The notes under the pieces are model-generated. The model was given only the letters and a program-made list of their open reading frames with translations, made no database searches and had not been told where the DNA came from. A stretch of DNA of 64,000 bases from an uncultured Eubacteriales bacterium (lineage in GTDB: Bacteria; Bacillota; Clostridia; Peptostreptococcales; Anaerovoracaceae): contig CADATO010000003.1 in NCBI GenBank assembly GCA_902790905.1, positions 1 to 64,000 on the forward strand, given 5' to 3'. Within the stretch, counting starts at the first letter, position 1; every line of letters begins with the position of its first letter. A program made the position numbers and the translations under genes. Positions 1,135 through 55,396 of the stretch are shown one piece after another.

Positions 1135-3027
1135 GTGAAATTAAGAGAACTGGTAATCATTCTGACATTCATACTTGTCTTGACCTATCCTTTTTTGGTT
1201 GACGTTTTTGCTGAAAGCGGGGAAGACGGGGAACTTTTGCTGGAACAGGAAACGGAGGCAATAGAAGAGGAACCGGCAGAAGAGATCCCTGATGAGAATA
1301 TTGCAGCAGAAGTCACGGATGATGCAGCAGACGGCGAAGAGGCCCCGGAGCAGGATGTCTGCACGGCAGGGGACTCCGGGCTTGCACCCGGCAACAGAGT
1401 CTGGTTCTACAATATCGCGGGGGGCACTCCCACGAACAGCGATATGATTCTTATAGAGTCCAATGGCAGATATGGGCTGATTGATGCGGGGAACCGCTAT
1501 CAGGACACGATCGAGGATGCAGACGGCACAGTGTATTCTGTTCCGGAGATGTATCCGGATGGAACGTATGCGGGGCTGTCATCACAAAGGGAAGGGAAGA
1601 ATGGCCGGGATGCGGCGATCTATATGATCGAAACACTTGGCGTGGACCATTTGGATTTCATCATTGGCACACATGCGCATTCCGATCATATGGGCGGTAT
1701 ACCCGAGATAGCAGATCTTTTGGTCAATGCACAGGATGGCAGCACGCATTATCTGATCGATGATACAACAGTATTTCTGTATAAGGGATATACACATATC
1801 AGCAGTAAAGAAGATGATCTGGAGGGAAGTTCAGACCAGTCCTGGCACAATCAGGCGTTCGTAAATCAGGCAGTGTCGGCAGTTGAAAACCGCGGAGGAA
1901 AGGCCGTGGACATCAGCTGCGGGATCAATGTGCGGGAAGGGGAATCGATCCAGGCAGACTTTACGGGCATATTGCAGGCAATCCAGCAAACGGGAGCTTT
2001 TCAGCAGGTATCCTATGAATCCCGCGTTGATACGAATCCGTATGATGACAGATTATCGCTGGTGTTCCAGCAGATGAAGCTGGATCTTTACAATCTGTTC
2101 TCCGTAAAGGATGCCATTAATGAAAATGCAAATTCTATTGTCACAGTCGTCACAGACGGAGATCATAAAGTATACCTTGGCGGGGATATCGATACGCAGT
2201 ATCAGATAGAACAGAAAGTGGCTGCAGCTATATCAGACGACCATGGTCATATTGATGTGGTAAAGGCTTCTCACCACGGCAGGGACGGATCAAATTCAAA
2301 AGCGTTGATTGACAGCATTCAACCTTCTGTTATTATTTGCCCCGGGGTGCAGACTGCAGCGTCCACCGTATCGCCGTCACAGGGGTACACGGCGATGATG
2401 TATTACGCAGCATCCAATTATGCGACAAGGTTTTATCAAGTCGGGGCTGCGGCGAAGTTTCTGGTTGTGGATTTCAGCCTTGCAGATGGTCCTGTTTATG
2501 AATTTATCGACGAAGAGGACGGATGCAGGCTGGGGACTGCTGACGGGTGCCTGGACCCGGCGTATTATCTTAGCGATGGATGGGCACATTGGGATGTTGC
2601 GATCGCCGGAAATACGAGCAGGGAGTATTATTACTTCGAGAATGGCGCCCCTGTCACCGGGTGGAAGCAGATCGATGGCGAGGAATATTATTTTGATGCA
2701 GATGGCTTCATGCGGCGAGGCTGGCTTACTGAAAACGGCAAAACGTATTATCTAAAGAATAGCGGCAGCATGGCAACAGGCTGGTGCCGGATAGATGAAA
2801 CCTGGTACTACTTTGGCTCCAATGGAGCCATGGTGCAAAACGGCTGGGGCAAAGACGCGACCGGATGGTTCTGGACAGACAGCAGCGGCCGGATGGCGGC
2901 GAGCAAATGGATTCATGACAAGGGTAACTGGTACTATGTCGGGCCGAACGGGTATATGGTAACAGGCACCCGCGTCATCGGGAACAGAACCTACCGCTTT
3001 GATAGTTCAGGCAAATGGATCAGATGA
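1135..3027 (+). CDS. Secreted metallo-beta-lactamase-fold hydrolase with choline-binding repeats (Pce-like)
   Basis: 630 residues starting at GTG. An N-terminal hydrophobic segment (about residues 5-25) acts as signal peptide and is followed by an acidic Glu/Ala-rich linker. The catalytic part (about 85-475) shows the metal-binding motif HAHSDHMGG near residue 180 and a second histidine motif, SHHGRDGSN, near 380. From about residue 480 to the end there are six or seven choline/cell-wall-binding repeats of the WYYF...G.M.TGW type. This domain order matches pneumococcal Pce/CbpE, which removes phosphocholine from teichoic acid; that activity is an inference here. Its neighbours make and load phosphocholine, which supports it. 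Another secreted MBL hydrolase activity is possible. Confidence 0.8.
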   Translation: MKLRELVIILTFILVLTYPFLVDVFAESGEDGELLLEQETEAIEEEPAEEIPDENIAAEVTDDAADGEEAPEQDVCTAGDSGLAPGNRVWFYNIAGGTPTNSDMILIESNGRYGLIDAGNRYQDTIEDADGTVYSVPEMYPDGTYAGLSSQREGKNGRDAAIYMIETLGVDHLDFIIGTHAHSDHMGGIPEIADLLVNAQDGSTHYLIDDTTVFLYKGYTHISSKEDDLEGSSDQSWHNQAFVNQAVSAVENRGGKAVDISCGINVREGESIQADFTGILQAIQQTGAFQQVSYESRVDTNPYDDRLSLVFQQMKLDLYNLFSVKDAINENANSIVTVVTDGDHKVYLGGDIDTQYQIEQKVAAAISDDHGHIDVVKASHHGRDGSNSKALIDSIQPSVIICPGVQTAASTVSPSQGYTAMMYYAASNYATRFYQVGAAAKFLVVDFSLADGPVYEFIDEEDGCRLGTADGCLDPAYYLSDGWAHWDVAIAGNTSREYYYFENGAPVTGWKQIDGEEYYFDADGFMRRGWLTENGKTYYLKNSGSMATGWCRIDETWYYFGSNGAMVQNGWGKDATGWFWTDSSGRMAASKWIHDKGNWYYVGPNGYMVTGTRVIGNRTYRFDSSGKWIR

Positions 3028-3052
3028 CTGGACGCTGCGAATACACGGATAC

Positions 3053-3081
3053 TTGACAATAATCCCGGAAACATGTATAAA
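3053..3081 (+). promoter_or_regulatory. Promoter of the phosphocholine operon
   Basis: Perfect -35 TTGACA (3053-3058), 17-bp spacer, TATAAT-like TATAAA (3076-3081). A terminator-like hairpin starts only 3 nt downstream, and a set of inverted half-sites lies between it and the start codon. Confidence 0.8.
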
Positions 3082-3083
3082 TG

Positions 3084-3109
3084 AAAAAGGAACATACCGT
3101 TCCTTTTTT
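3084..3109 (+). terminator. Hairpin with T-run just after the promoter
   Basis: AAAAAGGAAC (3084-3093) pairs with GTTCCTTTTT (3099-3108) around a 5-nt loop and ends in six T. It may end the upstream MBL gene. Because it sits at the expected transcription start of the next operon, it could also act as an attenuator. Confidence 0.65.
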
Positions 3110-3117
3110 AAAGACGC

Positions 3118-3157
3118 TGTGTTCACGAAAATAAGTATCATGTGTTTCATGAACACA
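3118..3157. promoter_or_regulatory. Candidate operator: three TGTGTT half-sites
   Basis: TGTGTTCA (3118-3125) is a perfect inverted repeat of TGAACACA (3150-3157). A third half-site, TGTGTT at 3141-3146, forms a 6-5-6 palindrome with AACACA at 3152-3157. The sites lie between promoter and start codon of a gene whose product begins with a winged-helix domain, so autoregulation is possible. No regulator is proven. Confidence 0.4.
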
Positions 3158-3179
3158 ATGCAGCGGAGTTTATTGAGGT

Positions 3180-4979
3180 ATGAAAGAAGTGAAAGAAACA
3201 ACGGTTGATAACAATCGCAGTCTGACGATACAGGAAGCGGATATTCTACTGGCATTGCAGGGGCAAGGCTGCACCACGCAGCGCGCGTTGGCAGAAGCAG
3301 CCGGGTACAGCCTGGGGGCAGTCAACAACAGCCTGAACGGGTTGCTGAAAAAGGGATATCTAAATGATTCGAGAGACATTACGGATGCGGCGAAGAAGGT
3401 CATGGAGGAGCGTGCACCCCGCAATGCGATTATCCTTGCTGCAGGCATGGGTATGAGGATGGTGCCGATCAACCAGTCTTTCCCCAAAGCGTTTGTTGAG
3501 ATCGAGGGGGAGCGGCTTATCGAGCGGCAGATTAAGCAGCTGCGTGAAGCGGGTGTTTACGACATCACGATCGTTGTCGGTTTCATGAAGGACAGTTTTG
3601 AGTATTTGATTGATAAATACGGTGTTGCGCTCGTCTATAATCAGGACTATGCCATTAAAAACAACTTGTATTCACTTCGCAGCGTACTCGACAGACTTGG
3701 CAACACCTATATTGTTCCGTGCGATATCTGGTGCGCGGAGAATCCGTTTTCGATGCGGGAAATGTATTCCTGGTATATGGTGAGTACCCGGCAGGACATT
3801 GATAGTGCGGTCAGGGTGAACCGTAAAAAAGAACTTGTAAGGGTGGCGGAACACGCTTGCGGAAACAAGATGATCGGGATTTCTTATCTCATGAAACCTG
3901 AGGCAGACAGGATCGCCGGGCAAATCGAGAAGATGACTGCGGAAGGCAGGCACGAGGGCGACTTTTGGGAAGCGGCGTTGTTTGACGGGGACCGGATGTT
4001 TGTGAACGCGCGCGTTGCCAGTGAAGAGGATGTTGTTGAGATCAATACATACGAACAGCTCCGCGAGTTGGACGCCGATTCAAGCCAGCTGCAGTCTGAC
4101 GCCATTCGTTCGATCATGCGGGCGCTGGAGTGCCGGCATGATGAGATCAAAGACATTGCGGTGCTGAAGAAGGGGATGACGAACCGGTCGTTTGTTTTCA
4201 CGGTCAGAGGCGATAAGTATATTATGAGGATTCCCGGAGAAGGGACCAACCGGCTTATTGACCGCAAACAGGAAGCGGATGTTTTTAAAGCGATATCCGG
4301 TCTGGGATTGTGTGACGATCCGGTCTATATCAAGCCGGAAAAGGGATATAAAATCACAAAATATCTGGAGGGAATCCGGGCATGCGATCCGGAAAGCGAA
4401 TCCGATCTGCAGCGCTGTATGAAAAAACTGCGCCGTTTTCACAGTCTGAAGCTGAAGGTGGATCATGAGTTTGATCTGTTTGGCCATATTGAATTCTATG
4501 AAACACTGTGGCACGGTGCACCGTCGATTTACCAGGACTATCGGACAACGAAAGAGAATGTCATGAGCCTGCGCCGGTATATCGAAGAGGCTGACAAGGA
4601 CTGGTGTCTGACGCATATTGATGCGGTGCCGGATAATTTCCTGTTTTACCGCACGGCGGACAGTACGGAGGAACACCTGCAGCTGACCGACTGGGAGTAT
4701 TCGGGTATGCAGGATCCGCATGTCGATCTCGCAATGTTCTGCATCTACAGCTTATATGACCGGGAACAATGCGATCACCTTATAGATATCTACTTTGAGA
4801 ATCGGTGTGACAGGTCAACAAGGGTGAAAATCTACTGCTATATTGCGGTTTGCGGATTGCTTTGGTCAAACTGGTGTGAGTTTAAACGTCAATTGGGCGT
4901 AGAATTCGGGGAATATAGCTTACGGCAGTACCACTATGCAAAAGAGTTTTACAGGTATGCGAAAGAGTTGATGGCGTAA
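3180..4979 (+). CDS. wHTH - phosphocholine cytidylyltransferase (LicC) - choline kinase (LicA) fusion
   Basis: 599 residues with three parts. Residues 1-75 form a winged helix-turn-helix of MarR/ROK-regulator type. Residues about 80-310 are a LicC-type nucleotidyltransferase (ILAAGMGMRMVP, FPKAFVEIEGERLIERQI). Residues about 325-599 are a choline/ethanolamine-kinase-fold phosphotransferase with Brenner motif HIDAVPDN near 480 and metal site TDWEYSG near 505. Together LicA and LicC convert choline to phosphocholine and then CDP-choline in the cytoplasm. In Streptococcus and Haemophilus these are separate proteins without a DNA-binding domain. The gene is followed by a choline-type transporter. 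The GAGG before the ATG is only 1-2 nt away, so a GTG at 3189 is an alternative start. The domain calls are firm; the substrate is inferred. Confidence 0.85.
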   Translation: MKEVKETTVDNNRSLTIQEADILLALQGQGCTTQRALAEAAGYSLGAVNNSLNGLLKKGYLNDSRDITDAAKKVMEERAPRNAIILAAGMGMRMVPINQSFPKAFVEIEGERLIERQIKQLREAGVYDITIVVGFMKDSFEYLIDKYGVALVYNQDYAIKNNLYSLRSVLDRLGNTYIVPCDIWCAENPFSMREMYSWYMVSTRQDIDSAVRVNRKKELVRVAEHACGNKMIGISYLMKPEADRIAGQIEKMTAEGRHEGDFWEAALFDGDRMFVNARVASEEDVVEINTYEQLRELDADSSQLQSDAIRSIMRALECRHDEIKDIAVLKKGMTNRSFVFTVRGDKYIMRIPGEGTNRLIDRKQEADVFKAISGLGLCDDPVYIKPEKGYKITKYLEGIRACDPESESDLQRCMKKLRRFHSLKLKVDHEFDLFGHIEFYETLWHGAPSIYQDYRTTKENVMSLRRYIEEADKDWCLTHIDAVPDNFLFYRTADSTEEHLQLTDWEYSGMQDPHVDLAMFCIYSLYDREQCDHLIDIYFENRCDRSTRVKIYCYIAVCGLLWSNWCEFKRQLGVEFGEYSLRQYHYAKEFYRYAKELMA

Positions 4980-5004
4980 CAGCGGATCGAGAAGAAAGGA
5001 GGAG

Positions 5005-5058
5005 ATGCCGACCGGGCGGGAGGCATTGATTAAGAAATGGATAGCAAAGAGACAGTAA
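5005..5058 (+). CDS. Possible 17-residue leader peptide ahead of the transporter gene
   Basis: A short open frame, MPTGREALIKKWIAKRQ, begins 2 nt after the strongest Shine-Dalgarno in the area (AAAGGAGG, 4995-5002) and overlaps the start of the BCCT gene by 22 nt in another frame. The spacing from the Shine-Dalgarno is too short for good initiation, so this may be chance. If translated it would couple translation into the transporter gene. Confidence 0.2.
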   Translation: MPTGREALIKKWIAKRQ

Positions 5059-6635
5059 AAACACTCGACACAAGCCGGGTGGACTGGATGGTCACCTTGG
5101 TGCCATTCTTTTCCGTCATGGCGCTTGCTGTATATTTGTTTGTATTTCCGGATCAGGCAAATGACGCCATTATGAAAGTCAGGTTTTTCTTCGGAGATAC
5201 CTGCGGCGTCTTTTATCTGATCATGGGGTTGGGGACGCTTCTTATATCTCTTTATCTTGCTTTCTCAAAATACGGAGATATCGTGCTCGGCGGACCGGAT
5301 GAAAAGCCGAAGTACTCCTTCTTTACCTGGGGAAGCATGATGTTTACCTGCGGTCTTGCAGCTGACATTCTGTTTTACTCGTTCTCGGAATGGGTGATGT
5401 ATGCTACCAATCCGCACATCGCGGAGATGGGGAGCATTGAAGAATGGGCGGGGGTATTTCCTTTGTTCCATTGGAGTTTTATCCCCTGGGCGTTTTATCT
5501 TGTATTGGCCGTCGCATTTGGCTTTATGGTGCACGTGCGGAAAAGAAACCGTCAGCGGTATTCCGAAGCCTGCCGTCCGCTGATCGGGGATAAACATGCC
5601 AACGGAATGCTCGGAAGAGTCATTGACCTCTTCGCGCTTTTTGCATTGCTGGCAGGCACGGCGACAACATTTTCGGTTGCTACGCCGCTGCTGGCAAGCA
5701 TCATAGTGAAACTGTTCGGGATGGAGCTCAGCCGCACGGCCGTTACCATCATCATTCTGGTGATCACCTGTGCGGTGTATACCTATGCTGTTCTGCACGG
5801 ATTTAAAGGAATCAGTTTCCTGGCGAAACTGTGCATTTACCTGTTCTTCGGCCTGTTGATTCTCGTCGTTCTGATCGGCGGGCAGGGGCGTTTCATCATC
5901 GAAAACGGGTTCCAGAGTTTTGGCCTCATGGTCCAGCATTTCTTCGAACTCAGCACGTATACGGATCCTTCAAGAAGCAACAATTTCCCGCAGGATTGGA
6001 CGATCTACTACTGGGCCTACTGGATGGTCTGGTGTATTGCAGCCCCCTTCTTTATCGGAAATATCAGCCGGGGACGGACGATCAGACAGACGATTCTCCA
6101 CGGGTATGTGTTCGGCGTTGGCAGTACGATCGTCAGCTTCATTGTGTTGAACAACTACGGTCTCGGACTGCAGATCGAGGGGAAAGCGGATTTTATTGCA
6201 CAGTACGAAGTGGATGGTGATCTTTATCAGCTGATCCTTGATATTATCGACACCCTGCCGGGGAGCAGTATTATTCTCGTGTGGATCCTGTTGTGCATGA
6301 TCGCTTTTTATGCGACGAGTTTTGATTCGATCGCGTATACGGCTGCATGCTACAGCTATAAAAAGATCGAGGAAAACGAACGCCCGCACACCATGATCGT
6401 ACTGCTCTGGTGCCTGCTGCTTATCGTGCTGCCTATCGCACTGGTGTTCTCCGAGAGCAGTATGAGCAATATCCAGAGTATATCGATTATCAGTGCATTC
6501 CCGATCGGCATCATCATGATCCTCATGATAAGTGCGTTTGTTAAAGATGCGAAAAAATATCTTGGAGAGTCCGCGGTGCTGAAAGAGCGCTCCCTGCCGC
6601 ACGGCGAAAAGGAAGGACAGAACGGGCATGCATAA
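5037..6635 (+). CDS. BCCT-family choline/betaine transporter
   Basis: 532-residue polytopic membrane protein with about 12 hydrophobic segments. The BCCT signature region around residue 320 (DWTIYYWAYWMVW, then ISRGRTIRQ) is intact. BCCT carriers take up quaternary amines such as choline, betaine or carnitine. Its position between a LicC-LicA fusion and a second LicC indicates choline supply for phosphocholine synthesis, the role played by the unrelated permease LicB in pneumococcus. An in-frame stop lies 6 nt upstream of the ATG, so the start cannot be further left; a GGGAGG at 5018-5023 is 13 nt away. The stop overlaps the next gene by 8 nt, indicating one operon. Confidence 0.9.
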   Translation: MDSKETVKTLDTSRVDWMVTLVPFFSVMALAVYLFVFPDQANDAIMKVRFFFGDTCGVFYLIMGLGTLLISLYLAFSKYGDIVLGGPDEKPKYSFFTWGSMMFTCGLAADILFYSFSEWVMYATNPHIAEMGSIEEWAGVFPLFHWSFIPWAFYLVLAVAFGFMVHVRKRNRQRYSEACRPLIGDKHANGMLGRVIDLFALFALLAGTATTFSVATPLLASIIVKLFGMELSRTAVTIIILVITCAVYTYAVLHGFKGISFLAKLCIYLFFGLLILVVLIGGQGRFIIENGFQSFGLMVQHFFELSTYTDPSRSNNFPQDWTIYYWAYWMVWCIAAPFFIGNISRGRTIRQTILHGYVFGVGSTIVSFIVLNNYGLGLQIEGKADFIAQYEVDGDLYQLILDIIDTLPGSSIILVWILLCMIAFYATSFDSIAYTAACYSYKKIEENERPHTMIVLLWCLLLIVLPIALVFSESSMSNIQSISIISAFPIGIIMILMISAFVKDAKKYLGESAVLKERSLPHGEKEGQNGHA

Positions 6636-7497
6636 AGTGGATAATGCGGTTATTCTCGCCGCCGGAACATCTTCGAGATTTGCACCGCTGTCGTATGAAA
6701 TGCCGAAGGGGCTGATATCCGTAAGAGGGGAAGTTCTTATCGAGCGGCAGATACGGCAGCTGAAGGAAGTAGGTATCGACCAGATTGTTGTGGTCACAGG
6801 GTACTTAAAGGAACAGTTTGAGTATCTTGCGAAAGAGTATGGTGTGATACTGATCAATAATGATGAGTATTGCACGCGCAACAATAACAGCAGCATCTGG
6901 GCTGCCCGGGACTATCTGAGAAACAGTTATATCTGTTCTTCCGATAATTATTTCACATCAAACCCATTCGAAAGTGCTGTGGAGGATGCGTATTATTCGG
7001 CCATCTACTCCGAGGGCTATACGAAAGAATGGTGCCTGCGTGTTGATGACGACGGCAATATAAATAAAGTCAGCATCGGGGGCAGGGATGCCTGGTATAT
7101 GCTGGGGCAGGTCTTTTGGACCAGAGAGTTCAGTGCGCAGTTCCTGCGTATTCTCGAAGCCGAGTATGATTTGCCGGCGACCAGAGACAAGCTTTGGGAA
7201 AGCATTTTTATGGAGCATCTGGACACCTTGAAAATGAAGGTGCGCAAATACACAGCGGATAGTATTTTTGAGTTTGATACGCTGGATGAACTAAGAGAGT
7301 TTGATCCGACCTTCTGCAAACACTCCGGTTCGAGAATTATGGAAGAGGTCGCAGAAACACTGGGCGGAACAGAAGAGGAAATGTCCGGGATCGAAGTCAT
7401 TAAGGGGCCGGATGGAGAGGCGGCAGGTTTTTCATTCCTTTTCAGATCAGAGCAGTATCAGTATTGTTACAGAACGAAGAAGCTGAACAGATGTTAA
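6628..7497 (+). CDS. licC: Second LicC-type phosphocholine cytidylyltransferase with a cut-off kinase start
   Basis: 289 residues. The first 230 form a LicC-like nucleotidyltransferase (ILAAGTSSRFAPLSYEMPKGL, shown here in part, and RGEVLIERQIRQLKEVG) close to the middle domain of the protein at 3180-4979. It would make CDP-choline from CTP and phosphocholine. Residues about 235-289 align with the first strands of the choline-kinase domain in that fusion (SFLFRSEQYQYCYR against SFVFTVRGDKYIMR). The frame then stops, so the kinase catalytic part is absent. It overlaps the BCCT gene by 8 nt and ends just before a terminator. It is probably a paralogue that lost its kinase. Confidence 0.8.
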   Translation: MHKVDNAVILAAGTSSRFAPLSYEMPKGLISVRGEVLIERQIRQLKEVGIDQIVVVTGYLKEQFEYLAKEYGVILINNDEYCTRNNNSSIWAARDYLRNSYICSSDNYFTSNPFESAVEDAYYSAIYSEGYTKEWCLRVDDDGNINKVSIGGRDAWYMLGQVFWTREFSAQFLRILEAEYDLPATRDKLWESIFMEHLDTLKMKVRKYTADSIFEFDTLDELREFDPTFCKHSGSRIMEEVAETLGGTEEEMSGIEVIKGPDGEAAGFSFLFRSEQYQYCYRTKKLNRC

Positions 7498-8119: not shown

Positions 8120-8143
8120 TGAAAGCCGCCGTTGCGGCCGGTT

Positions 8144-8172
8144 TTGACGCTGTATGTAAAACAGACTATAAT
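8144..8172 (+). promoter_or_regulatory. Promoter of the nucleotidyltransferase/SDR pair
   Basis: TTGACG (8144-8149), 17-bp spacer, perfect TATAAT (8167-8172). An AGGGAGGA Shine-Dalgarno (8183-8190) follows, 7 nt before ATG 8198. Confidence 0.85.
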
Positions 8173-8197
8173 TAAAATGGATAGGGAGGACCTTTAT

Positions 8198-9127
8198 ATG
8201 AATATCACACCGATCAAAGAACCGACTCTCATCATCATGGCCGCGGGCATGGGCAGCCGTTACGGCGGGCTCAAGCAGATCGATCCGGTCACGGACAAGG
8301 GCGAGATCATCATGGACTTCTCCCTGTTCGACGCAAAGCGCGCCGGCTTCAAGAAAGTCGTGTTTGTTATAAAGGAAGAAATGGAAGAAGCATTCCGCGC
8401 CCTGATGGATGAGCGTGTCGGAAAGCACATGGACGTGCAGTACGCGTTCCAGAAGCTGGACGATCTGCCGGACGGCTATGCGATTCCGGAAGGACGCGAA
8501 AAGCCCTGGGGCACCGGGCATGCGATCCTCGCGGCACGCCACCTCGTGGACGGCAACTTCGCGGTCATCAACGCGGACGATTACTACGGCCCCAACGGAT
8601 TTAAGCTCATGTACGACTTCCTGACCCGCAAGGCCGGCCCCGCCGACTTCTGCATGATCAGCTACGAACTCTGCAAGACAGTCACGGAGAACGGCAGCGT
8701 TTCCCGCGGCGTCTGCAACATCTCGAAGAATGGCTACCTCAACCACATCGTCGAGCGCACCCGCATCGAGCACGTGGGCGACAAGATCTGCTACACCGAA
8801 GACGACGGCGAAAGCTGGACCGAGCTCGCGCCGCACACCCCTGTTTCGATGAACTTCTGGGGCTACACGCATATGATGATGGAGGAACTGGAATCGCAAT
8901 TCCCCGCCTTCCTCGACGAAGCGATGAAAGAAAACCCGATGAAGGGCGAATATCAGATCCCGAGAGTCACCGACGGCCTGATCAAATCCGGCCAGGCGGA
9001 CGTCACCGTTCTGCAGAGCGCAGACCGCTGGTACGGCGTGACATATAAGGAAGACAAACAGAGCGTCGTCGAAGCCATGCAGGCGATGAAGGACAGCGGT
9101 CTGTACCCGGAGGTTCTGTGGGGTTAG
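8198..9127 (+). CDS. Sugar-phosphate nucleotidyltransferase-like protein
   Basis: 309 residues. The start ATG follows a near-perfect Shine-Dalgarno and promoter. The nucleotide-binding signature lies at residues 10-30 (LIIMAAGMGSRYGGLKQ). The middle holds AINADDYYG-like acidic metal-site residues (VINADDYYG near residue 125). Such enzymes transfer NMP from NTP to a sugar phosphate or similar phosphate; the substrate cannot be read from sequence. It shares a promoter with the following SDR gene, 13 nt away. G+C content is high compared with the flanking glycan genes, so it looks like part of the older chromosome. Confidence 0.7.
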   Translation: MNITPIKEPTLIIMAAGMGSRYGGLKQIDPVTDKGEIIMDFSLFDAKRAGFKKVVFVIKEEMEEAFRALMDERVGKHMDVQYAFQKLDDLPDGYAIPEGREKPWGTGHAILAARHLVDGNFAVINADDYYGPNGFKLMYDFLTRKAGPADFCMISYELCKTVTENGSVSRGVCNISKNGYLNHIVERTRIEHVGDKICYTEDDGESWTELAPHTPVSMNFWGYTHMMMEELESQFPAFLDEAMKENPMKGEYQIPRVTDGLIKSGQADVTVLQSADRWYGVTYKEDKQSVVEAMQAMKDSGLYPEVLWG

Positions 9128-9140
9128 AAGGAAAACAGCC

Positions 9141-9953
9141 ATGAAGAAACAGACAGCAAAAAAGATCGCGATCGTCACCGGCGCCTCGAGCGGACTGGGA
9201 CGGGAATTCGTCAAACAGATCGCAAAGAGCCGGCAGCTCGATGAGATCTGGGTCATCGCGCGCCGCAGAGACCGGCTTGAAGAGGTGCGCCGCCTGAGCA
9301 AAGTGGCGCTCCGCACGATCCCGCTCGATCTGACCGAGAAGAGCGCTTTTGATGTGCTGCGCCATGCCCTCGAGGAATCGCACCCTGACGTGCGCATGCT
9401 CGTCAATGCCGCCGGCGTCGGCAAGATCGGCATGACCACAGAGCTCTCCCTGCAGGAGAACGACCAGATGATCGATCTCAACTGCCGGGCGGCTGTCGAT
9501 ATGTGTCTGACAGTACTGCCTCACATGAGCCGCAGCAGTGAACTGATCAATATCTGTTCGGTGGCGGGGTTCCAGCCGCTGACCGGCCTCAATACCTACG
9601 CGGCGACAAAAGCATTCCTGCTCAGCTGGACCAAAGCGCTGCACCACGAACTGCTGCTGAAGGGCATCAAGGTCACGGCGCTGTGCCCGTACTGGGTCAA
9701 GGACACGGAATTCATCCCGGTTGCCAAGGAGACTGACTATGCGCCGATCGCCAAAGAGGGCGACAAAAGTGCGATTAAAAACTTCTGGTTTGCCGGGCAT
9801 GCAAAGTACATCGTCCGTCAGGCGCTGCGTGCAAGCCGGCTCAACCTGTGGGTCTGCTCGCCCGGCCCCGTGGCAAAGGCGGAGCGGCTGGTCAGCTGGG
9901 TGCTTCCGGACTGTGTGATAATCCCTGTGTGGGATATCCTGAGGAGACTGTGA
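9141..9953 (+). CDS. Short-chain dehydrogenase/reductase
   Basis: 270 residues with a classical SDR layout: TGASSGLGREF at residues about 13-23 for NAD(P) binding, NAAGVGKIG near 95, the catalytic serine in NICSVAGF near 137, and YAATK (Tyr and Lys of the active site) near 153. It reduces or oxidises an unknown alcohol/ketone in the cytoplasm. It is the second gene after the nucleotidyltransferase. The last 50 residues are basic and moderately hydrophobic (LRASRLNLWVCSP), as in SDRs that act on lipids or sterols, but no substrate can be named. Confidence 0.8.
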   Translation: MKKQTAKKIAIVTGASSGLGREFVKQIAKSRQLDEIWVIARRRDRLEEVRRLSKVALRTIPLDLTEKSAFDVLRHALEESHPDVRMLVNAAGVGKIGMTTELSLQENDQMIDLNCRAAVDMCLTVLPHMSRSSELINICSVAGFQPLTGLNTYAATKAFLLSWTKALHHELLLKGIKVTALCPYWVKDTEFIPVAKETDYAPIAKEGDKSAIKNFWFAGHAKYIVRQALRASRLNLWVCSPGPVAKAERLVSWVLPDCVIIPVWDILRRL

Positions 9954-10046: not shown

Positions 10047-12002
10047 ATGGAAAATGAAAAGACGGAAAAGCGAATACAGCATGCGCATATCATCATGCTG
10101 TATTTGATTATATATGATGCTATCGCTGTCAGCGTTTCTTATTTTACAGCGCTTTGGCTGCGTTTTGATTTGCGGTTCTCAGCGATTCCACCCTGGTATC
10201 TGGAAGCGTGGAAGAGTTTTGCTCTGATCTACGTAGTCTTTTGTATTGTCGTATTCTGGTTTTTCAGGCTTTACAAGAGCATTTGGAGATTCGCCAGCTT
10301 TAAGGAACTGGAGCGCATTTCCGTTGCGACGCTCATTACAACGGTTTCTCATATCGTGCTGATCACCATTCTCTTCCAGAGAATGCCCATTTCTTATTAT
10401 CTGATGGGTGCGTGTCTGCAGTTCCTGCTGGTTACCGGGATCCGATTCTCATATCGGTTCATTTTACTTTTGCGTTCTACTGAGCGGATGAAAACAGCAA
10501 ACAACTGTATGCTGATTGGAGCCGGCGCAGCCGGGGCGGTCATACTGAGAGAACTGGAACGCAGCAAAGAGCTGGAGGATAAGATCGTCTGCATCATAGA
10601 CGATAACCGCAATAAATGGAACAGGTATATCGAGGGCATTCCGGTTATCGGGGGGCGTGACAAGATCCTTAGCGCAGTCAAGGAATATGGCATTAAGAAA
10701 ATATACCTGGCGATTCCCAGCCTTTCCGGAAAAGAGCGGAAGCAGATTCTGGATATTTGCAAAGAAACGGAATGTGAACTGCACACCCTTCCCGGAATGT
10801 ATCAGTTGATGCTTGGAAAAGTGACGGTCAACTCCCTGCGGAAAGTCAAGGTAGAAGATCTGCTTGGCCGTGAACCCGTGAAAATGGATTCCCGTGAACG
10901 CCGTACATTCCTGAGCGGAAAGACTGTTCTGATTACCGGGGGCGGCGGCAGCATCGGCAGCGAACTGTGCCGGCAGGTGGCGTCGATCCGGTCGTTGAAG
11001 CGGTTGATTATTTTTGATATTTATGAGAATAACGCACATGCGATTCGTTTAGAGCTTGAGGATAAGTATCCGGATATTGATCTGGTTGTCCTGATTGGGT
11101 CTGTACGTAACAGCCGCAGACTCATGCAGGTTTTTGAAGAATACCGGCCGGATATCGTTTTCCATGCAGCCGCGCACAAGCATGTGCCTCTGATGGAAGA
11201 CAGCCCCTGCGAATCCATCAAGAATAATGTCATAGGAACATACTACACAGCGTATGCAGCGATGGCATATGACTGTGAAAAGTTTGTGCTGATCTCGACG
11301 GACAAAGCCGTCAATCCGGTCAATATTATGGGCGCCAGCAAGCGTCTTTGCGAGATGGTCGTGCAGACGTTTGCAAAAAAGATCAGTGCCGGTAAAGCGA
11401 GTGACTTGCCCTCCCTGCACGGGAAGATTCCTTACGGAAAGAGCAGATTCGACGAAGTTCAGGTGGTAGCAAAGCCGCGGACGGAGTTCGTTGCAGTACG
11501 TTTCGGGAATGTTCTTGGCAGCAATGGTTCTGTCATTCCGCGGTTCAAAGAGCAGATTGAGGCCGGCGGACCGGTAACGGTCACGCATCCGGATATCATC
11601 CGGTACTTCATGACGATCCCTGAGGCAGCCTCCCTTGTCATCGAAGCAGCGACATTCGGCGGGGGCGGACGGATCTTTGTCCTTGACATGGGCACTCCGG
11701 TAAAAATTGTGGATCTGGCCAGGAACATGATACAGTTATCCGGCCTGAAGCCAGATGAAGATATCAAAATTGTTTACACGGGGCTGAGACCGGGCGAAAA
11801 ACTGTACGAAGAGAGGCTCATGGACGAAGAGGGTCTGCAGACAACTTCGAATGAACTGATCAGTATCGGGAAGCCCATCGAATTTGATGAAGACAGGTTT
11901 TTGAAGCAGCTTCAGGAGCTTATGGTTGCTGCCTATGAAGATCGCGCGGATATACGCGATCGGGTGGCGGAAATGGTCCCCACCTATCACATCATCGGTT
12001 AG
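10047..12002 (+). CDS. Membrane UDP-sugar 4,6-dehydratase (PglF/WbpM/CapD type)
   Basis: 651 residues. Four hydrophobic segments fill residues 12-135. A first Rossmann domain starts near 152 (CMLIGAGAAGAVILREL) and the dehydratase SDR domain near 293 (VLITGGGGSIGSE). The catalytic loop STDKAVNPVNIMGASK has Met where most SDRs have Tyr, as in PglF and WbpM. These enzymes turn UDP-GlcNAc into a 4-keto-6-deoxy sugar, the first step to bacillosamine, AATGal or related 2,4-diamino sugars. The next two genes encode the matching aminotransferase and initiating transferase. An AAAAGGA Shine-Dalgarno lies 6 nt before the ATG. Confidence 0.9.
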   Translation: MENEKTEKRIQHAHIIMLYLIIYDAIAVSVSYFTALWLRFDLRFSAIPPWYLEAWKSFALIYVVFCIVVFWFFRLYKSIWRFASFKELERISVATLITTVSHIVLITILFQRMPISYYLMGACLQFLLVTGIRFSYRFILLLRSTERMKTANNCMLIGAGAAGAVILRELERSKELEDKIVCIIDDNRNKWNRYIEGIPVIGGRDKILSAVKEYGIKKIYLAIPSLSGKERKQILDICKETECELHTLPGMYQLMLGKVTVNSLRKVKVEDLLGREPVKMDSRERRTFLSGKTVLITGGGGSIGSELCRQVASIRSLKRLIIFDIYENNAHAIRLELEDKYPDIDLVVLIGSVRNSRRLMQVFEEYRPDIVFHAAAHKHVPLMEDSPCESIKNNVIGTYYTAYAAMAYDCEKFVLISTDKAVNPVNIMGASKRLCEMVVQTFAKKISAGKASDLPSLHGKIPYGKSRFDEVQVVAKPRTEFVAVRFGNVLGSNGSVIPRFKEQIEAGGPVTVTHPDIIRYFMTIPEAASLVIEAATFGGGGRIFVLDMGTPVKIVDLARNMIQLSGLKPDEDIKIVYTGLRPGEKLYEERLMDEEGLQTTSNELISIGKPIEFDEDRFLKQLQELMVAAYEDRADIRDRVAEMVPTYHIIG

Positions 12003-12037
12003 TTTAGTAAGGAAAGGGTGCTGAGAGAGGTTTTCAA

Positions 12038-13327
12038 ATGGCATTTAACAAACAGAATACAATGAAACCGTTCAATGAAAAAATCTGGCTTTCTTCTCCG
12101 ACGATGCATGGGGAAGAGCTGGTCTATATGCAAGAGGCCTACGAGACCAACTGGATGTCTACCCTCGGCAAAAATATCAATGAGACAGAACGGATCACCT
12201 GTGAGAAGATCGGCTGCAAGCATGCGGTTGCGCTGTCTTCCGGGACCGCAGCCATGCATCTTGCGATCAAACTGGCAGGGGAACGGCTGTATGGGCAGCC
12301 TGCTGTAGGCCATGGCGTATTGGAAGGCCGGAAGGTTTTCTGTTCAGACATGACATTCGATGCGACCATTAATCCAGTCGCCTATGAAGGCGGGGAAGCT
12401 GTTTTTATCGACTCGGAATACGATACCTGGAATATGGATCCAGTCGCATTGGAAAAAGCGTTTGAGCTTTATCCGGATGTGCGGCTCGTTGTTGTTGTGC
12501 ATCTCTACGGGACACCGTGCAAGATGGATGAATTGCGCGCTGTCTGCGAGAAGCACGGGGCACTGATTGTGGAGGATGCCGCAGAATCCATGGGGGCAAC
12601 GTATAAAGGCCGTCAGACAGGGGTGCTGGGAGATGTCGGTGTTGTTTCATTCAACGGGAACAAAATCATCACTGGTTCATCCGGCGGTATGCTGCTGACC
12701 GATGACGGGGAAGCGGCGGAGAAGGTCCGGAAATGGAGCACGCAGAGCCGTGAGGATGCTGCCTGGTACCAGCATGAAGAACTCGGCTATAACTACCGGA
12801 TGAGCAACGTCATCGCCGGCGTTGTACGCGGCCAGTATCCGCATCTGGAAGAGCACATCGCTCAGAAAAAGGCGATTTATGAGCGTTATGCAGAAAACCT
12901 GGCAGGACTTCCCGTCAGCATGAATCCATACCAGAAAGATGTCGCAGAGCCGAATTACTGGCTGTCCTGCCTGCTCATCGATAAAGAAGCAATGTGCCGT
13001 CAGGTTCGTGGTGATAAAGAAGCGCTTTATGTTGCCGAGGCGGGGAAAAGCTGCCCGACGGAAATCCTTGAGGCGATCGCATCCATCAACGCCGAGGGGC
13101 GCCCGATCTGGAAACCGATGCATATGCAGCCAATTTACCGCAGCCATGCGTTCGTAACGGCTGCCGGTAACGGACGTGCGCGAAGCAATGCATATATTGA
13201 GAGTGCAGGATTTGTTGATGTCGGCGCTGATATCTTTGCAAGGGGGCTGTGCCTGCCGAGCGATAACAAGATGACACTGGAGCAGGTGGGCATTGTCTGC
13301 GAAGTCATCAGAAAGTGCTTTGAATAG
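12038..13327 (+). CDS. DegT/DnrJ/EryC1 sugar aminotransferase (PglE-like)
   Basis: 429 residues, PLP-dependent. The cofactor lysine is in SFNGNKIITG near residue 209, preceded by VEDAAESMG (the Asp that binds the pyridine nitrogen). The N-terminal LSSPTMHGEE is typical of aminotransferases that act on UDP-4-keto-6-deoxy-GlcNAc, such as PglE and the pneumococcal AATGal enzyme. It would add the 4-amino group to the product of the preceding dehydratase. C4 stereochemistry (bacillosamine or AATGal precursor) cannot be told. The 35-nt spacing to the previous gene and 11 nt to the next indicate one transcript. Confidence 0.88.
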   Translation: MAFNKQNTMKPFNEKIWLSSPTMHGEELVYMQEAYETNWMSTLGKNINETERITCEKIGCKHAVALSSGTAAMHLAIKLAGERLYGQPAVGHGVLEGRKVFCSDMTFDATINPVAYEGGEAVFIDSEYDTWNMDPVALEKAFELYPDVRLVVVVHLYGTPCKMDELRAVCEKHGALIVEDAAESMGATYKGRQTGVLGDVGVVSFNGNKIITGSSGGMLLTDDGEAAEKVRKWSTQSREDAAWYQHEELGYNYRMSNVIAGVVRGQYPHLEEHIAQKKAIYERYAENLAGLPVSMNPYQKDVAEPNYWLSCLLIDKEAMCRQVRGDKEALYVAEAGKSCPTEILEAIASINAEGRPIWKPMHMQPIYRSHAFVTAAGNGRARSNAYIESAGFVDVGADIFARGLCLPSDNKMTLEQVGIVCEVIRKCFE

Positions 13328-13338
13328 GATACACATAC

Positions 13339-14082
13339 ATGGGTATAGTTAAAAAAACGGGAAAAGTTTTATCGGCAGCTGCTTTGGCTATGACAGCAGG
13401 CGTGGCGGTGAAAAACGCGCTCGCTGCTGTACCGGATGAAGAAGCCGGACATAGACAGGGCTTTTACGAGAAGTACGTCAAGAGGCCGCAGGATTTCCTC
13501 TGCGCGTTGTCGGCTTCGGTTGTGCTGTCACCGGTCATGGCGGCGACAGCAATACTGGTGCGGATCAATCTCGGCAGTCCGGTCCTGTTTGTACAGGAAC
13601 GGCCGGGAAAGGGCGGCAAGCCTTTTAAACTTTACAAATTCAGAACGATGCTTCCGCCTAAAGAGGGTGTGATAGATCCGACCCAGGACGGGGCGAGACT
13701 GACACCGTTCGGGAAAAAACTCAGAAGTACCAGTCTTGATGAATTGCCCGAATTATTCAATATGCTGAAGGGCGATATGTCGGTTGTGGGGCCAAGACCG
13801 CTTCTTATGCAGTACATGGGCCGGTATGATGAACATCAGATTCGCCGCCACGAAGTGCTGCCCGGTTTTACCGGACTGGCACAGGTCAACGGGCGCAACG
13901 CGATCAGCTGGGAAGATAAGTTTGATTGGGATGTGAAGTATGTCGACAACATCACATTCAGCGGAGACTGGAAGATCATTTTCGAGACGGTCAGAACGGT
14001 TTTGAAGAGAGAGGGCATCAGCAGCGCCGGAGAGGCGACAATGGCAGAGTTTATGGGATCCTCTTCGAAAGGAACAGAATAA
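13339..14082 (+). CDS. Initiating sugar-phosphate transferase (PglC/WcaJ family)
   Basis: 247 residues. A hydrophobic membrane helix (about 45-75) is followed by the bacterial sugar-transferase core: RPGKGGKPFKLYKFRTM, then DELPELFNMLKGDMS and VVGPRPLL. It moves a sugar-1-phosphate from a UDP-sugar onto undecaprenyl phosphate at the inner face of the membrane and so starts glycan assembly. With the dehydratase and aminotransferase upstream, the likely first sugar is a 2-acetamido-4-amino-trideoxyhexose, as in pneumococcal teichoic acid. The stop codon overlaps the next start (TAATG). Confidence 0.9.
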   Translation: MGIVKKTGKVLSAAALAMTAGVAVKNALAAVPDEEAGHRQGFYEKYVKRPQDFLCALSASVVLSPVMAATAILVRINLGSPVLFVQERPGKGGKPFKLYKFRTMLPPKEGVIDPTQDGARLTPFGKKLRSTSLDELPELFNMLKGDMSVVGPRPLLMQYMGRYDEHQIRRHEVLPGFTGLAQVNGRNAISWEDKFDWDVKYVDNITFSGDWKIIFETVRTVLKREGISSAGEATMAEFMGSSSKGTE

Positions 14083-15689
14083 TGAAGATTCTTATTACTG
14101 GCGTGGGCAGAAGGATAGAACTGATCCAGGCATTTCGTAACGCAGCGCTTGTTCTAAACAAAGAATTGAAGATCTACGGCGCGGATATGGCGGGGACGGC
14201 GCCGGCATTGGCGTACTGCGATTACACAAGAACTGTGGTAGCGATGAAAGACCCCGGGTATATAGATGATTTGCTTCGGATTTGCCGTGCGGAGCAGATC
14301 GATCTTTTGATTCCTACGATCGACACAGACCTTCTGGTGCTGTCGGAAAACAAGGCGCGGTTTGACGCGATCGGCACACGGGTGATGATCAGCGCACCGG
14401 AGAGTATAAGGATCTGCAGAGACAAGAATCTGACATCTGATTTCTTTGTCGACTGCGGCCTGCATGCTCCTATGCCCGTGAATGATTGGACGATGTACGA
14501 TGCCGGATACCCGGCTTTCATTAAACCGAAAGACGGCAGCAGTTCGATCAACGCTTTCAAGGTCGAGAATGCAGAAGAACTGGAGGTTTATGCCGGTCAG
14601 GTGGAGGATTATATCGTCCAGCCCTTTGTGTCCGGGCGGGAGTATACGATAGATGTCTTTTGTGATTGGGATGGAGAGCCTGTCAGCATTGTGCCAAGAG
14701 AACGCATGCAGATAAGGGCTGGAGAAGTTCTGAAAACGCGGATCTGCATGGATCCGGTCATGATCGAGGAGGCAAAGGCGCTTTGCAAGGCATTCCGCCC
14801 GTGCGGCCCGATGACCGTACAGCTGATTCGTGACGGGAAAGGCGTCGACTGGTTTATAGAAATCAATCCGCGTTACGGCGGGGGTGCTCCGCTATCCATG
14901 AAAGCCGGCGCAAGAAGTGCTGAGACGGTGTTGAAGATGCTGGACGGCGAAGCTGTCGAACGTATGCCGGAAATTGCAGACAAGGCCATTTATAGCCGTT
15001 TTGATCAGTCGGTTTGCATCGAGGAAGGCCGCAGTAAGGTCTGCGGGGTGGTTTTTGACCTCGATGATACGCTCTACAGTGAAAAGGATTATGTCAGATC
15101 CGGGTTCAAAGCAGTCTCTGATTATCTTGGCGGAGGCTATGAAGAATCGCTGTGGCATTCGTTCGAAGAAGGGAAGCCGGCGATCGATGAGCTTCTTTGC
15201 AAACTTGGAAGAGAAGAGGAAAAAGAAGCTGTTCTGGATCGGTATCGGACACACGCGCCCCGGATCGAACTCTATGATGGCGTGAAGGAGCTTCTGCAGA
15301 AGCTCCGTGAACAGGGACGCAAGATCGGCATCATCACGGATGGCAGACCGGAGGGACAGAAGAATAAAATTGCTGCATTGGGACTGGATCAGCTGGTGGA
15401 CGACATCCTGATCACGGACGAACTTGGCGGTGTGCAGTTCCGCAAACCCTGCGATATCGCATTCCGCATCATGCAGACAAAGTGGCGGCTCCCGGCTGGC
15501 GAAATGGTGTATATTGCGGATAATCCGGACAAGGATTTTCAGGCTCCGAAACAGCTTGGCATGCGGTGCATCATGATTGACAATGCGGACGGACTGTATA
15601 CCGGTGAGCATGCCGTAAAGAATGTGGTGTATGCAGGCAGGAAAGGCTGGACCGAACAGCTGCTTGAGCTGTTGCCGGGCGAGTGCTAA
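14082..15689 (+). CDS. ATP-grasp ligase fused to a HAD phosphatase
   Basis: 535 residues. Residues 1-310 resemble carbamoyl-phosphate-synthase-like ATP-grasp enzymes: MKILITGVGRRIELI at the start, FIKPKDGSSSINAF for ATP binding near 150, and EINPRYGGG with metal ligands near 265. Residues about 320-535 form a HAD hydrolase with DLDDTLYS (nucleophile Asp), a TDG motif near 420 and IADNPDKDF. ATP-grasp enzymes join a carboxylate to an amine through an acyl phosphate; HAD enzymes usually remove phosphate. In this cluster the pair could attach an amino acid or similar acyl group to the free amino group of a sugar or amino-polyol and trim a phosphate. That role is inference. The start is the ATG overlapping the previous stop. 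Confidence 0.75.
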   Translation: MKILITGVGRRIELIQAFRNAALVLNKELKIYGADMAGTAPALAYCDYTRTVVAMKDPGYIDDLLRICRAEQIDLLIPTIDTDLLVLSENKARFDAIGTRVMISAPESIRICRDKNLTSDFFVDCGLHAPMPVNDWTMYDAGYPAFIKPKDGSSSINAFKVENAEELEVYAGQVEDYIVQPFVSGREYTIDVFCDWDGEPVSIVPRERMQIRAGEVLKTRICMDPVMIEEAKALCKAFRPCGPMTVQLIRDGKGVDWFIEINPRYGGGAPLSMKAGARSAETVLKMLDGEAVERMPEIADKAIYSRFDQSVCIEEGRSKVCGVVFDLDDTLYSEKDYVRSGFKAVSDYLGGGYEESLWHSFEEGKPAIDELLCKLGREEEKEAVLDRYRTHAPRIELYDGVKELLQKLREQGRKIGIITDGRPEGQKNKIAALGLDQLVDDILITDELGGVQFRKPCDIAFRIMQTKWRLPAGEMVYIADNPDKDFQAPKQLGMRCIMIDNADGLYTGEHAVKNVVYAGRKGWTEQLLELLPGEC

Positions 15690-15704
15690 ACGGAGGATAC
15701 AGGT

Positions 15705-16544
15705 GTGACAACATTTGAAGAATATAAAGCGAAACAACTGGAGATCCTGCATGAACTGGACAGGGTCTGCAAACTGGCAGGCATCCAGTATTTTCTGGCG
15801 TATGGGACCTGCCTCGGGGCGGTAAGACACAAGGGGTTTATTCCCTGGGATGATGACATCGATATCTTCCTGCCGTGTCAGGAAATGCAGAAGCTTCTGG
15901 ATAACCGGCATCTGTTCAAAGAGCAGTATTTTGTTCAGACAAGAGAGACTGACCCCGGATACACGAACATGAAGGTCTCGCTCAGAGACTCTTCTACGTC
16001 GTATTTTGGTGATGAGAACGACGATCAGGATATCAACCATGGCATGTCGATCGATTTGTACAATCTGTATCCGTATCCGGACCGGTTTCTGACTGCCCAT
16101 AAGCTGATCATTGATTCGTACGTGCTGCGGATTCTCTATATGAAAACACCGCCCCGGCATCACGGCAAGAAAGGCAAACTTGTCTACGGACTCATCCATG
16201 GACTGTATGCCGGAAAGCGCGCTGAAAAGAAGATTCGGAAGATCGAGGCAAAGCTTGCGAACAACGGCGGTTCAAAGTATTATGCGTCCTTCTTTGGCGA
16301 TGATATCACGCCGGTTTCCTGTTTCAAGTTCCCGCGCAAAAACTTTGAGAGCTGCAAGGAATTGATGTTTGAGGACTATATGGCACCTTGTCCTGCGGAT
16401 CCCGAGCAGATTTGCGAGCTGACATATGGGAAAACATACATGGAGTATCCGCCCGAGGAGGAACGGGTTCCCAGACATCAGGTACTGTTCATGAGCTGTG
16501 ATGAGCCGTACACCGACTATAAAGGCGTCTATTACTGCAAATGA
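15705..16544 (+). CDS. licD: LicD-family phosphotransferase (first copy)
   Basis: 279 residues starting at GTG with CGGAGG 8 nt upstream. The LicD signature is complete: AYGTCLGAVRHKGFIPWDDDIDI in the first 60 residues, with the catalytic acidic run. LicD proteins move phosphocholine, or in eukaryotic relatives ribitol phosphate, from a CDP-linked donor to a glycan. The operon also encodes a separate CDP-alcohol-forming enzyme (18804-20153), so this copy may use that donor rather than CDP-choline. A second LicD lies at 32981-33736. Confidence 0.88.
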   Translation: MTTFEEYKAKQLEILHELDRVCKLAGIQYFLAYGTCLGAVRHKGFIPWDDDIDIFLPCQEMQKLLDNRHLFKEQYFVQTRETDPGYTNMKVSLRDSSTSYFGDENDDQDINHGMSIDLYNLYPYPDRFLTAHKLIIDSYVLRILYMKTPPRHHGKKGKLVYGLIHGLYAGKRAEKKIRKIEAKLANNGGSKYYASFFGDDITPVSCFKFPRKNFESCKELMFEDYMAPCPADPEQICELTYGKTYMEYPPEEERVPRHQVLFMSCDEPYTDYKGVYYCK

Positions 16545-16554
16545 GGTGCGGGCA

Positions 16555-17700
16555 TTGAGAGTAGATAGAGCATATTGCTGCGATTCCCCGTTTCAGGTAT
16601 TCACGTGCATCCATATGGAACTGCATCAGCATACCTGTTCGGATATGTATATATTGGATGCTTTTAAGGACGCCGGCCGCATTGTCGGGGAACTGCGCAA
16701 GCGCGGTCTGTTCAGAAAGGTCGTCCTGATCGGCACGGAACGCGTGTACAACAAGAATAAGACTGTCAATAAGCGGACGCTGAAAAGCAGTCTTGGTACA
16801 TTTGGAACATATTTTGATGTCAGAGAGATCGTAGAGGGCTATATTGAAAAAGACGCTGTCTATGACGAGATGTACTTTTCCTGCAATCAGCTGAGCTTCA
16901 GACTTGCGAGGTTTTATTTCATCAAAAAAGGATATCCGACCAGATTCGTTATGTATGATGAGGGGGCAGGGTCTTACGACGGGCACTTTGAACGGGTGAA
17001 GTTCACGGACGCCTTCGTGCGGAGGATTCTGTTCGGGAAAAGAGCCGGGAACAGCGGGCTGGATCTGTACCTGTATCAGCCGGAACTGTACTTTGCTTAT
17101 GAGAAGGAAAAGCACCGGCTGCACAAAATCTGCCCGTTCGATGAAACGGACAAGGCCTATCTGGACGATTATAATGCGATCTTCAACAGTATTGCCGTTG
17201 AAACGGCCGGAAAACATATCTATTTCGATACGCTCCGGGAAGAAGTCGTAGTGACTGAGGAAGCGCTCGTCAGCATGCAGCAATGGTATGATATGATAGA
17301 AGATGCGCTGGGAGCGGAAAACATCCTGGTCAAACCGCATCCGCGGGCGTTCCGGAAATACCCGCACAATGCAGAGGATTTTGCGGCATCGGATTGTCCG
17401 ATGGAGATCAATTATTTATCCATGGATCTGGACGATCTTGGGCTGATCTCCCTGCTTTCGACAGCGGCGATCTCGCCAAAACTGATTTATGACAAAGAGC
17501 CGCGGGTATTGATCCTTTGTAATGTAGATAAGAATGTGTATAAGGCGAATGAGGATTTGCTCGCCTTTTACCGTTCAGTCAAAGCATTGTACCGGGATCC
17601 GGACAGATTCATGATCCCGGAAAACATGGAAGAACTGAAAGAGTGTCTGAAAGTGATCGCTGCAGATAGTAAAAGAGGAAAGGGAGAACAGAATGCTTAA
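16555..17700 (+). CDS. GT52-like glycosyltransferase (sialyl/nonulosonyl transferase candidate)
   Basis: About 381 residues from TTG 16555, which has GAGG 8 nt upstream; GTG 16546 directly after the preceding stop is an alternative. The N-terminus ([17 protein letters not shown]) matches the opening of family 52 and polysialyltransferase-like enzymes, and the C-terminal half has VKPHPRAF, the HP motif that binds CMP-sugar in this group. The genome segment makes a CMP-activated nonulosonate, so transfer of that sugar is the likely job. The acceptor is unknown. It overlaps the next gene by 8 nt. Confidence 0.6.
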
Positions 17701-18775: not shown

Positions 18776-18803
18776 TATTAGCAGATCGTTTCGGAGAGAG
18801 AAA

Positions 18804-21310: not shown

Positions 21311-21319
21311 GAGATATAT

Positions 21320-27904: not shown

Positions 27905-27923
27905 GTCAGAAAGAAGGTTTAAT

Positions 27924-30142: not shown

Positions 30143-30156
30143 TCTGGAGGAATGCA

Positions 30157-52381: not shown

Positions 52382-52431
52382 ACTGGTCCACTCTTTGTTT
52401 TTGTAGAAAAAACAAAGAGGACCGGTTTTTT
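52382..52431 (+). promoter_or_regulatory. Terminator-like hairpin at the 5' end of the glucosaminidase mRNA
   Basis: ACTGGTC (52382-52388) pairs with GACCGGT (52420-52426), one G-T pair. After a 2-nt bulge, CTCTTTGTTTTT (52391-52402) pairs with AAAAACAAAGAG (52408-52419). Six T follow (52426-52431). With the promoter as read, this 19-bp hairpin begins at about the first transcribed base and ends 22 nt before the ATG. It may be an attenuator or a second terminator for read-through from upstream. Confidence 0.7.
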
Positions 52432-52453
52432 GGTAAGGAGAAGTACAGAAGAT

Positions 52454-55371: not shown

Positions 55372-55396
55372 GCAGTCATTAAGCCGGGGTAATCAT

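Follow-up and report, generated by a model that had tools for sequence, protein, structure and literature searches.

The question raised by this locus is whether an anaerobic member of the Clostridia carries a phosphocholine surface system of the pneumococcal kind, and which of its proteins would make CDP-choline. The window, that is the whole stretch of DNA analysed, covers the initial 64 kb of a contig of 83 kb, and belongs to a 2.0-Mb genome which is 97% complete. Gene identities were assigned by Pfam and NCBIfam scans of the window (Table 1). Choline-binding repeats (CBRs) are the tandem repeats described by PF01473, PF19127 and PF19085. All the genes named in the preliminary description of the locus were retrieved, with small corrections of coordinates or domains. 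The LicC and LicA domains mentioned there are both present, but are parts of one 599-aa protein, here called LicCA, which starts with a winged helix. No match was found by scanning the window with Rfam.

Table 1. Genes of the 64-kb window discussed in the text, with the matches on which their assignment relies.
Feature	Position	Strand	Evidence
Secreted protein, MBL-fold and C-terminal CBR	1135..3027	+	Choline_bind_3 6e-24, Choline_bind_1 2e-20, Lactamase_B 8e-6 (Pfam)
LicCA: winged helix, LicC-like domain, choline kinase	3180..4979	+	MarR_2, NTP_transf_3, Choline_kinase (Pfam)
BCCT quaternary-amine transporter, likely choline importer	5037..6635	+	Pfam BCCT 2e-121
Separate LicC (LicC2), probable CTP:phosphocholine cytidylyltransferase	6628..7497	+	1JYK E 3e-40; key residues
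NTP-transferase-like protein	8132..9127	+	true start probably downstream; promoter-like site 8144-8172
Short-chain dehydrogenase	9141..9953	+	
PglF-type UDP-GlcNAc 4,6-dehydratase	10047..12002	+	Polysacc_synt_2 9e-113
PglE-type aminotransferase	12038..13327	+	DegT_DnrJ_EryC1 2e-75
PglC-type initiating sugar-phosphate transferase	13339..14082	+	Bac_transf 6e-58
ATP-grasp and HAD fusion	13926..15689	+	frame opens upstream, start uncertain
LicD1, LicD-family phosphotransferase (choline or other CDP-alcohol)	15705..16544	+	LicD 5e-36; FKRP E 2e-5
Candidate glycosyltransferase	16498..17700	+	DEG and HP motifs in translation
PhnW/AepZ-like class V aminotransferase	17693..18775	+	TIGR03301 1e-45, below cut-off
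TagD-like cytidylyltransferase fused to GFO/IDH dehydrogenase	18804..20153	+	
Wzy-like polymerase	20150..21310	+	weak Wzy_C, below cut-off
Wzx flippase	21320..22726	+	Polysacc_synt 1e-19
Nonulosonic (legionaminic-type) acid genes: dehydratase, aminotransferase, CBS-nucleotidyltransferase, PglD-like, NeuB, NeuC	26672..32957	+	
LicD2, second LicD-family phosphotransferase	32981..33736	+	LicD 2e-31
CBR and YkuD L,D-transpeptidase	50773..52263	+	
CBR and SagB-like glucosaminidase region	52430..54649	+	SagB-like match weak, below cut-off
LCP glycopolymer-peptidoglycan ligase	55352..56470	+	LytR_cpsA_psr 2e-35

The window plausibly encodes a Lic-type phosphocholine surface system, in which LicCA and the separate LicC have split roles and CBRs serve for docking; we assign to this reading a probability of about 0.78. 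Choline would be imported by the BCCT transporter, and phosphorylated by the kinase half of LicCA, a step for which the residue evidence is strong. Residues and co-occurrence point to the separate LicC, rather than to the LicC domain of LicCA, as the source of CDP-choline. Phosphocholine would then be transferred by one or both LicDs to a glycan which may be started by the PglF/E/C proteins; its export would rely on Wzx, and its attachment to peptidoglycan probably on the LCP ligase, encoded by one of the two LCP genes of the genome. Secreted CBR proteins, 15 in all and including several wall-remodelling enzymes, would dock on the phosphocholine residues. At the sequence level the phosphocholine surface glycan is well supported, because the genes are present, choline kinase and CBRs co-occur, and the components are found as a single run in three genomes.

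The nearest solved structure to the kinase half of LicCA is the pneumococcal LicA 4R77 (E 8e-30), and the AF2 model of LicCA (pLDDT 88) matches LicA with a Z of 27.4. Eight choline-contact residues of LicA have been published (PMC4364537). Seven are found in the window protein (Thr29, Asp176, Val178, Tyr197, Trp251, Trp254 and Tyr268) and, Val178 apart (101/126), are conserved in at least 115 of 126 relatives; the eighth, Glu213, is replaced by Tyr, as in 100 of the 126. Residues thus provide strong evidence that the pocket is that of a choline kinase.

The two LicC sequences of the locus are not equivalent. Pneumococcal LicC 1JYK is the best solved relative of the fused domain (E 1e-32), but the separate LicC is closer to it (E 3e-40). 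Residues are given in the numbering of pneumococcal LicC, consistent with the Asp105, Asp192, Arg129 and Glu216 cited in PMC6697681. The separate LicC of the window retains Trp136, Trp165, Asp107, Glu216 and Asp218. Alignment to 1JYK revealed Trp136 in 66/67 separate LicCs, in which Trp165 is mostly, and Asp218 also, conserved; fused LicC domains carry Ser136 in 58/60 cases, Asn218 in 57/60, and Leu165 in most, while retaining Arg18, Lys28, Asp107, Glu216 and the CTP motif. The window LicCA conforms to the latter pattern, the equivalent of Trp136 being Ser209, with Leu in place of Trp165 and Asn in place of Asp218. Trp136 is said to contact choline in the LicC structure described by Kwak in 2002. 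The existence of an aromatic box is confirmed in PMC6697681, where its residues are not named, and where a PntC enzyme having the aromatic residues of LicC was found to prefer aminoethylphosphonate. By its match to 1JYK, its key residues and its AF2 model (pLDDT 95, Z 29.9 to 1JYL), the separate protein looks like a genuine LicC cytidylyltransferase. The fused domain, changed at Trp136, Trp165 and Asp218, does not look like a canonical LicC.

The two types of LicC occur in pairs. A Trp136-bearing separate LicC is found near 61 of 67 fused proteins lacking Trp136, and near none of the 12 which keep it; adding class-level loci, the figures become 76/86 and 1/16, all such counts ignoring relatedness, and the Ser136 fused domains being a single clade (FastTree, local support 100). 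Several loci display just 1.5 kb of flank, so that the cases in which no separate LicC was seen may be an undercount of the pairs. Separate LicCs derive from at least three lineages of the tree, and that of the window nests among fused proteins with Trp136; it can be aligned (47-50%) into the start of LicA of fused relatives, its C-terminal stub being the remnant of a lost LicA domain. Clostridium-like genomes contain a second, distant lineage of fused proteins, different from that of the window LicCA; here too Trp136 is missing and a separate LicC is present. Some of its members have lost Asp107, and their separate LicC scores 180-204 bits to pneumococcal LicC. Four genomes of a Clostridium-like family (f45; G263, G362, G442 and G580) contain 150-265 candidate choline-binding repeats each, and the LicC domain of their LicCA has no Trp136 and, in three of the four, no Asp107. 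The winged helix is found in 94/103 fused proteins versus 3/115 separate LicCs.

Given both the Trp136 residue pattern and the pairing of Trp136-less LicCA with separate LicC, the latter is probably the CDP-choline synthetase. The model of the fused domain is well folded (pLDDT mostly 83-98, Z 26.6 to 1JYK), which argues that in this lineage the domain has been re-tuned rather than decayed; LicCA would then probably act as a choline kinase, to which a winged helix and the modified LicC domain are joined. For such a division of labour the sequence evidence is moderate. The LicC domain of LicCA, regarded in the preliminary description as the LicC of the pathway, is devoid of Trp136 and is probably not the CDP-choline synthetase; the notion that LicCA alone may account for both LicC and LicA was dropped after the residue comparison to 1JYK. 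One may still argue that LicCA is an ordinary bifunctional kinase/cytidylyltransferase, and the separate LicC a paralogue acting on another phospho-alcohol. The conserved fold, Asp107, Glu216 and CTP motif of the fused domain fit this scheme, as does the existence of single fused proteins with Trp136, and Treponema denticola may be taken as a precedent, its LicCA fusion being reportedly bifunctional in a CDP-choline route. Yet, as many as 67 fused domains have lost Trp136, 61 adjoining a separate LicC which bears it, and the second lineage has kept its high-scoring separate LicC even though Asp107 is gone in some members, which makes the bifunctional scheme improbable.

What the LicC domain of LicCA does, once joined to a winged helix, is a matter of conjecture: it may sense products of the pathway, or activate a different phospho-alcohol. 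A tentative proposal, on the unlikely side, is that LicCA is a trigger enzyme, whose LicC domain, relieved of its catalytic duty by the second LicC, would bind CDP-choline or CTP and signal to the attached DNA-binding domain whether production of the choline system should be increased, the kinase being still at work. The 3027-3180 interval, located 5' of LicCA, features a promoter-like TTGACA-17-TATAAA sequence, a hairpin flanked by A/T residues, and GTGTTCA/TGAACAC repeats, a possible regulator site. A common palindromic operator was sought upstream of LicCA in 34 loci, and discarded because no better than shuffles.

CBRs of the three window proteins score far above Pfam cut-offs. The search of the whole genome for additional choline-binding proteins, suggested in the preliminary description, identified 12 more, for a total of 62 CBR matches in 15 secreted proteins, all of which qualify, by profile, as tandem-repeat proteins of the PF01473/PF19127/PF19085 type. 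Partner domains in the genome include two of NlpC/P60 type, a GH25 lysozyme and a YkuD transpeptidase; a weak C39-like match is below cut-off. Aromatic W[YF][YFW] motifs are found in 15/15. Association with choline kinase was monitored in 198 genomes of the family and 391 of the class. Defining as CBR-rich genomes with 7 or more matches, a threshold chosen after the data had been seen, choline kinase and CBR-rich status co-occur in 13/17 versus 6/181 genomes in the family, while the class gives 12/18 versus 13/373. When any CBR match is considered, with no threshold, p is 1e-6 in the family and 6e-9 in the class. Taken together, p values for the two samples range from 1e-6 to 1e-13, none being corrected for relatedness.

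Among 76 named LicCA loci, most of which repeat the LicCA-BCCT-LicC association of the window, a separate LicC lies within reach in 67 and a BCCT gene in 60. Three genomes of one genus carry, in a single run, genes for a choline-binding protein, LicCA, BCCT, LicC, PglF, aminotransferase, PglC, Wzx, LCP and another choline-binding protein; in one of the three, LicD resides within the run. The wide distribution outside streptococci foreseen in the preliminary description is thus substantiated by the co-occurrence in two samples and by this run. LicCA, LicC and BCCT are present in Lachnospira eligens ATCC 27750, and licD, licCA, licC and the BCCT gene are contiguous in pE1-2, a mobilizable plasmid of Lacticaseibacillus paracasei (L132, 11052-15947), where they terminate a rhamnose capsule locus. 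Collinsella has a single fused protein with Trp136, and a DMT transporter and repeat proteins are found nearby. In a Kiritimatiellae MAG, outside Bacillota, a fused LicC-LicA, a further LicA match, BCCT and LicD lie together (L120, 8124-12722).

The BCCT protein, whose solved relatives are DddT, CaiT, BetP and BetT, occupies in the locus the place of the LicB permease. Exactly two LicD genes reside in the 2.0-Mb genome, both in the window. A LicD phylogeny meant to pick the choline transferase had long branches and gave no assignment; neither LicD can therefore be named as such. Both may act on choline. Glycan clusters 1 and 2 may contribute to one common glycan. Members of the LicD family can use other CDP-alcohols. 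Cluster 1 (10047-22726) has its own CDP-alcohol chemistry, provided by the TagD-like cytidylyltransferase-dehydrogenase and the PhnW-like aminotransferase, and LicD1 may consequently use another alcohol. This weakens one point of the preliminary description: the evidence favours a phosphocholine system at the surface, served by choline-binding proteins of the same genome, but does not support the assignment of all the parts to a single glycan. The best match to PEP mutase in the whole genome (97% complete) scores 20 bits, against a cut-off of 31.5, which makes a 2-aminoethylphosphonate pathway unlikely; aminoethylphosphonate was rejected as the true substrate on the same ground. Lacking a phosphonate pathway, the 18804-20153 and 17693-18775 genes perhaps represent a route to a CDP-amino-alcohol. 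The same capsule-type cluster includes a PylC/PRK12767-like ATP-grasp fused to a HAD phosphatase (13926-15689). The 16498-17700 protein has no Pfam match, and a single distant relative was retrieved from the 198 genomes of the family, so that it is rare; the presence of DEG and HP motifs hints at a bacterial sialyltransferase. In a 634-aa membrane protein (L130, 769-2673, minus strand), a CDP-alcohol phosphotransferase is combined with a region apparently resembling a phosphatase and with an additional membrane portion.

Other explanations concern the fate of CDP-choline and the ligand of the repeats. CDP-choline could be mainly converted into phosphatidylcholine and not used for a glycan, as a CDP-choline route to phosphatidylcholine is known in Treponema (PMC7368946) and two CDP-alcohol phosphotransferases are encoded in the genome, one of them as the unusual fusion of 634 aa. 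This is very unlikely, since CBR proteins track with LicCA, and LicCA is found beside glycan genes and LicD, even in the plasmid capsule locus. We consider slightly less probable still that the repeats bind another, glucan-type ligand, the choline genes serving an unrelated capsule and the linkage being coincidental. The repeat family does hold glucan-binding and clostridial toxin repeats (PMC4929436), and many genomes have a few CBR matches but no LicCA; coincidence is nonetheless hard to reconcile with the co-occurrence measured in two genome samples, the aromatic motifs of all 15 proteins, and the adjacency of CBR genes to LicCA in several loci. More credible, though short of an even chance, is a refinement compatible with the phosphocholine surface system, in which LicD1 transfers a different CDP-alcohol, produced by the TagD-like and aminotransferase genes, and only LicD2 handles choline; either the two substituents would then be on distinct glycans, or a single glycan would bear both. 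The PhnW-like and TagD-like genes adjoin LicD1, as expected from such a refinement, but TagD-like genes and LicD are also found directly beside LicCA in two other loci (L095 and L099), and the LicD tree offered no resolution.

The putative phosphocholine surface system of the window resembles that of Streptococcus pneumoniae, where lic1/lic2 serve phosphocholine teichoic acid and choline-binding proteins: common to the two are choline kinase, LicC and LicD, initiation with an amino sugar, a flippase, LCP, and numerous wall enzymes of the choline-binding type. The term pneumococcus-like, used in the preliminary description, is appropriate for the logic, not for the parts: in the locus BCCT takes the place of LicB, LicA shares one polypeptide with a winged helix and a LicC-like domain, LicC is encoded separately, no TarIJ was seen beside the locus, and nonulosonic-acid genes are nearby. 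In Treponema denticola, cytidylyltransferase-like and choline kinase domains are reportedly fused as well; here, LicCA lies beside LicD and choline-binding proteins, and a second LicC is present. PntC, the aminoethylphosphonate cytidylyltransferase, has the LicC fold and some of the active-site residues, but gives a lower structural match (Z 22-24 versus 26-30 for LicC), and PEP mutase is below cut-off here. In other Gram-positive anaerobes outside streptococci, Atopobium rimae and Olsenella uli, lic genes reside near phosphonate genes (PMC6697681), whereas no phosphonate pathway was detected here. Choline-binding-domain proteins and a lysozyme of Clostridium acetobutylicum, which belongs to another family, are reported in work cited in PMC12029793, and likewise place repeats of this type on wall enzymes of clostridia.

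Choline-binding systems outside streptococci are thus already known, and earlier work has described both lic genes of certain anaerobes and wall enzymes of clostridia which bear choline-binding repeats. In the open-licence literature, Clostridia are unmentioned in a survey of ChoP-expressing species (PMC10434233), and choline is unmentioned in a review of gut surface polysaccharides. What appears to be new is a Lic logic in which choline uptake would depend on BCCT, and CDP-choline synthesis probably on a LicCA/LicC pair that is split and re-tuned, the two-protein arrangement recurring across many Clostridia. Phosphocholine, a major antigen which also serves in mimicry of the host, has been investigated mainly in bacteria of the airways. 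LicCA without Trp136 is repeatedly paired with a LicC that has it, which lends itself to a clean biochemical test. If the proposed system is real, dietary choline would be a wall nutrient for gut Clostridia, the gut would harbor a source of phosphocholine antigen, and choline-based wall tools would become available for little-studied bacteria. Should LicCA also be a trigger enzyme, many gut Clostridia would regulate their coat by means of a choline switch contained in the enzyme itself.
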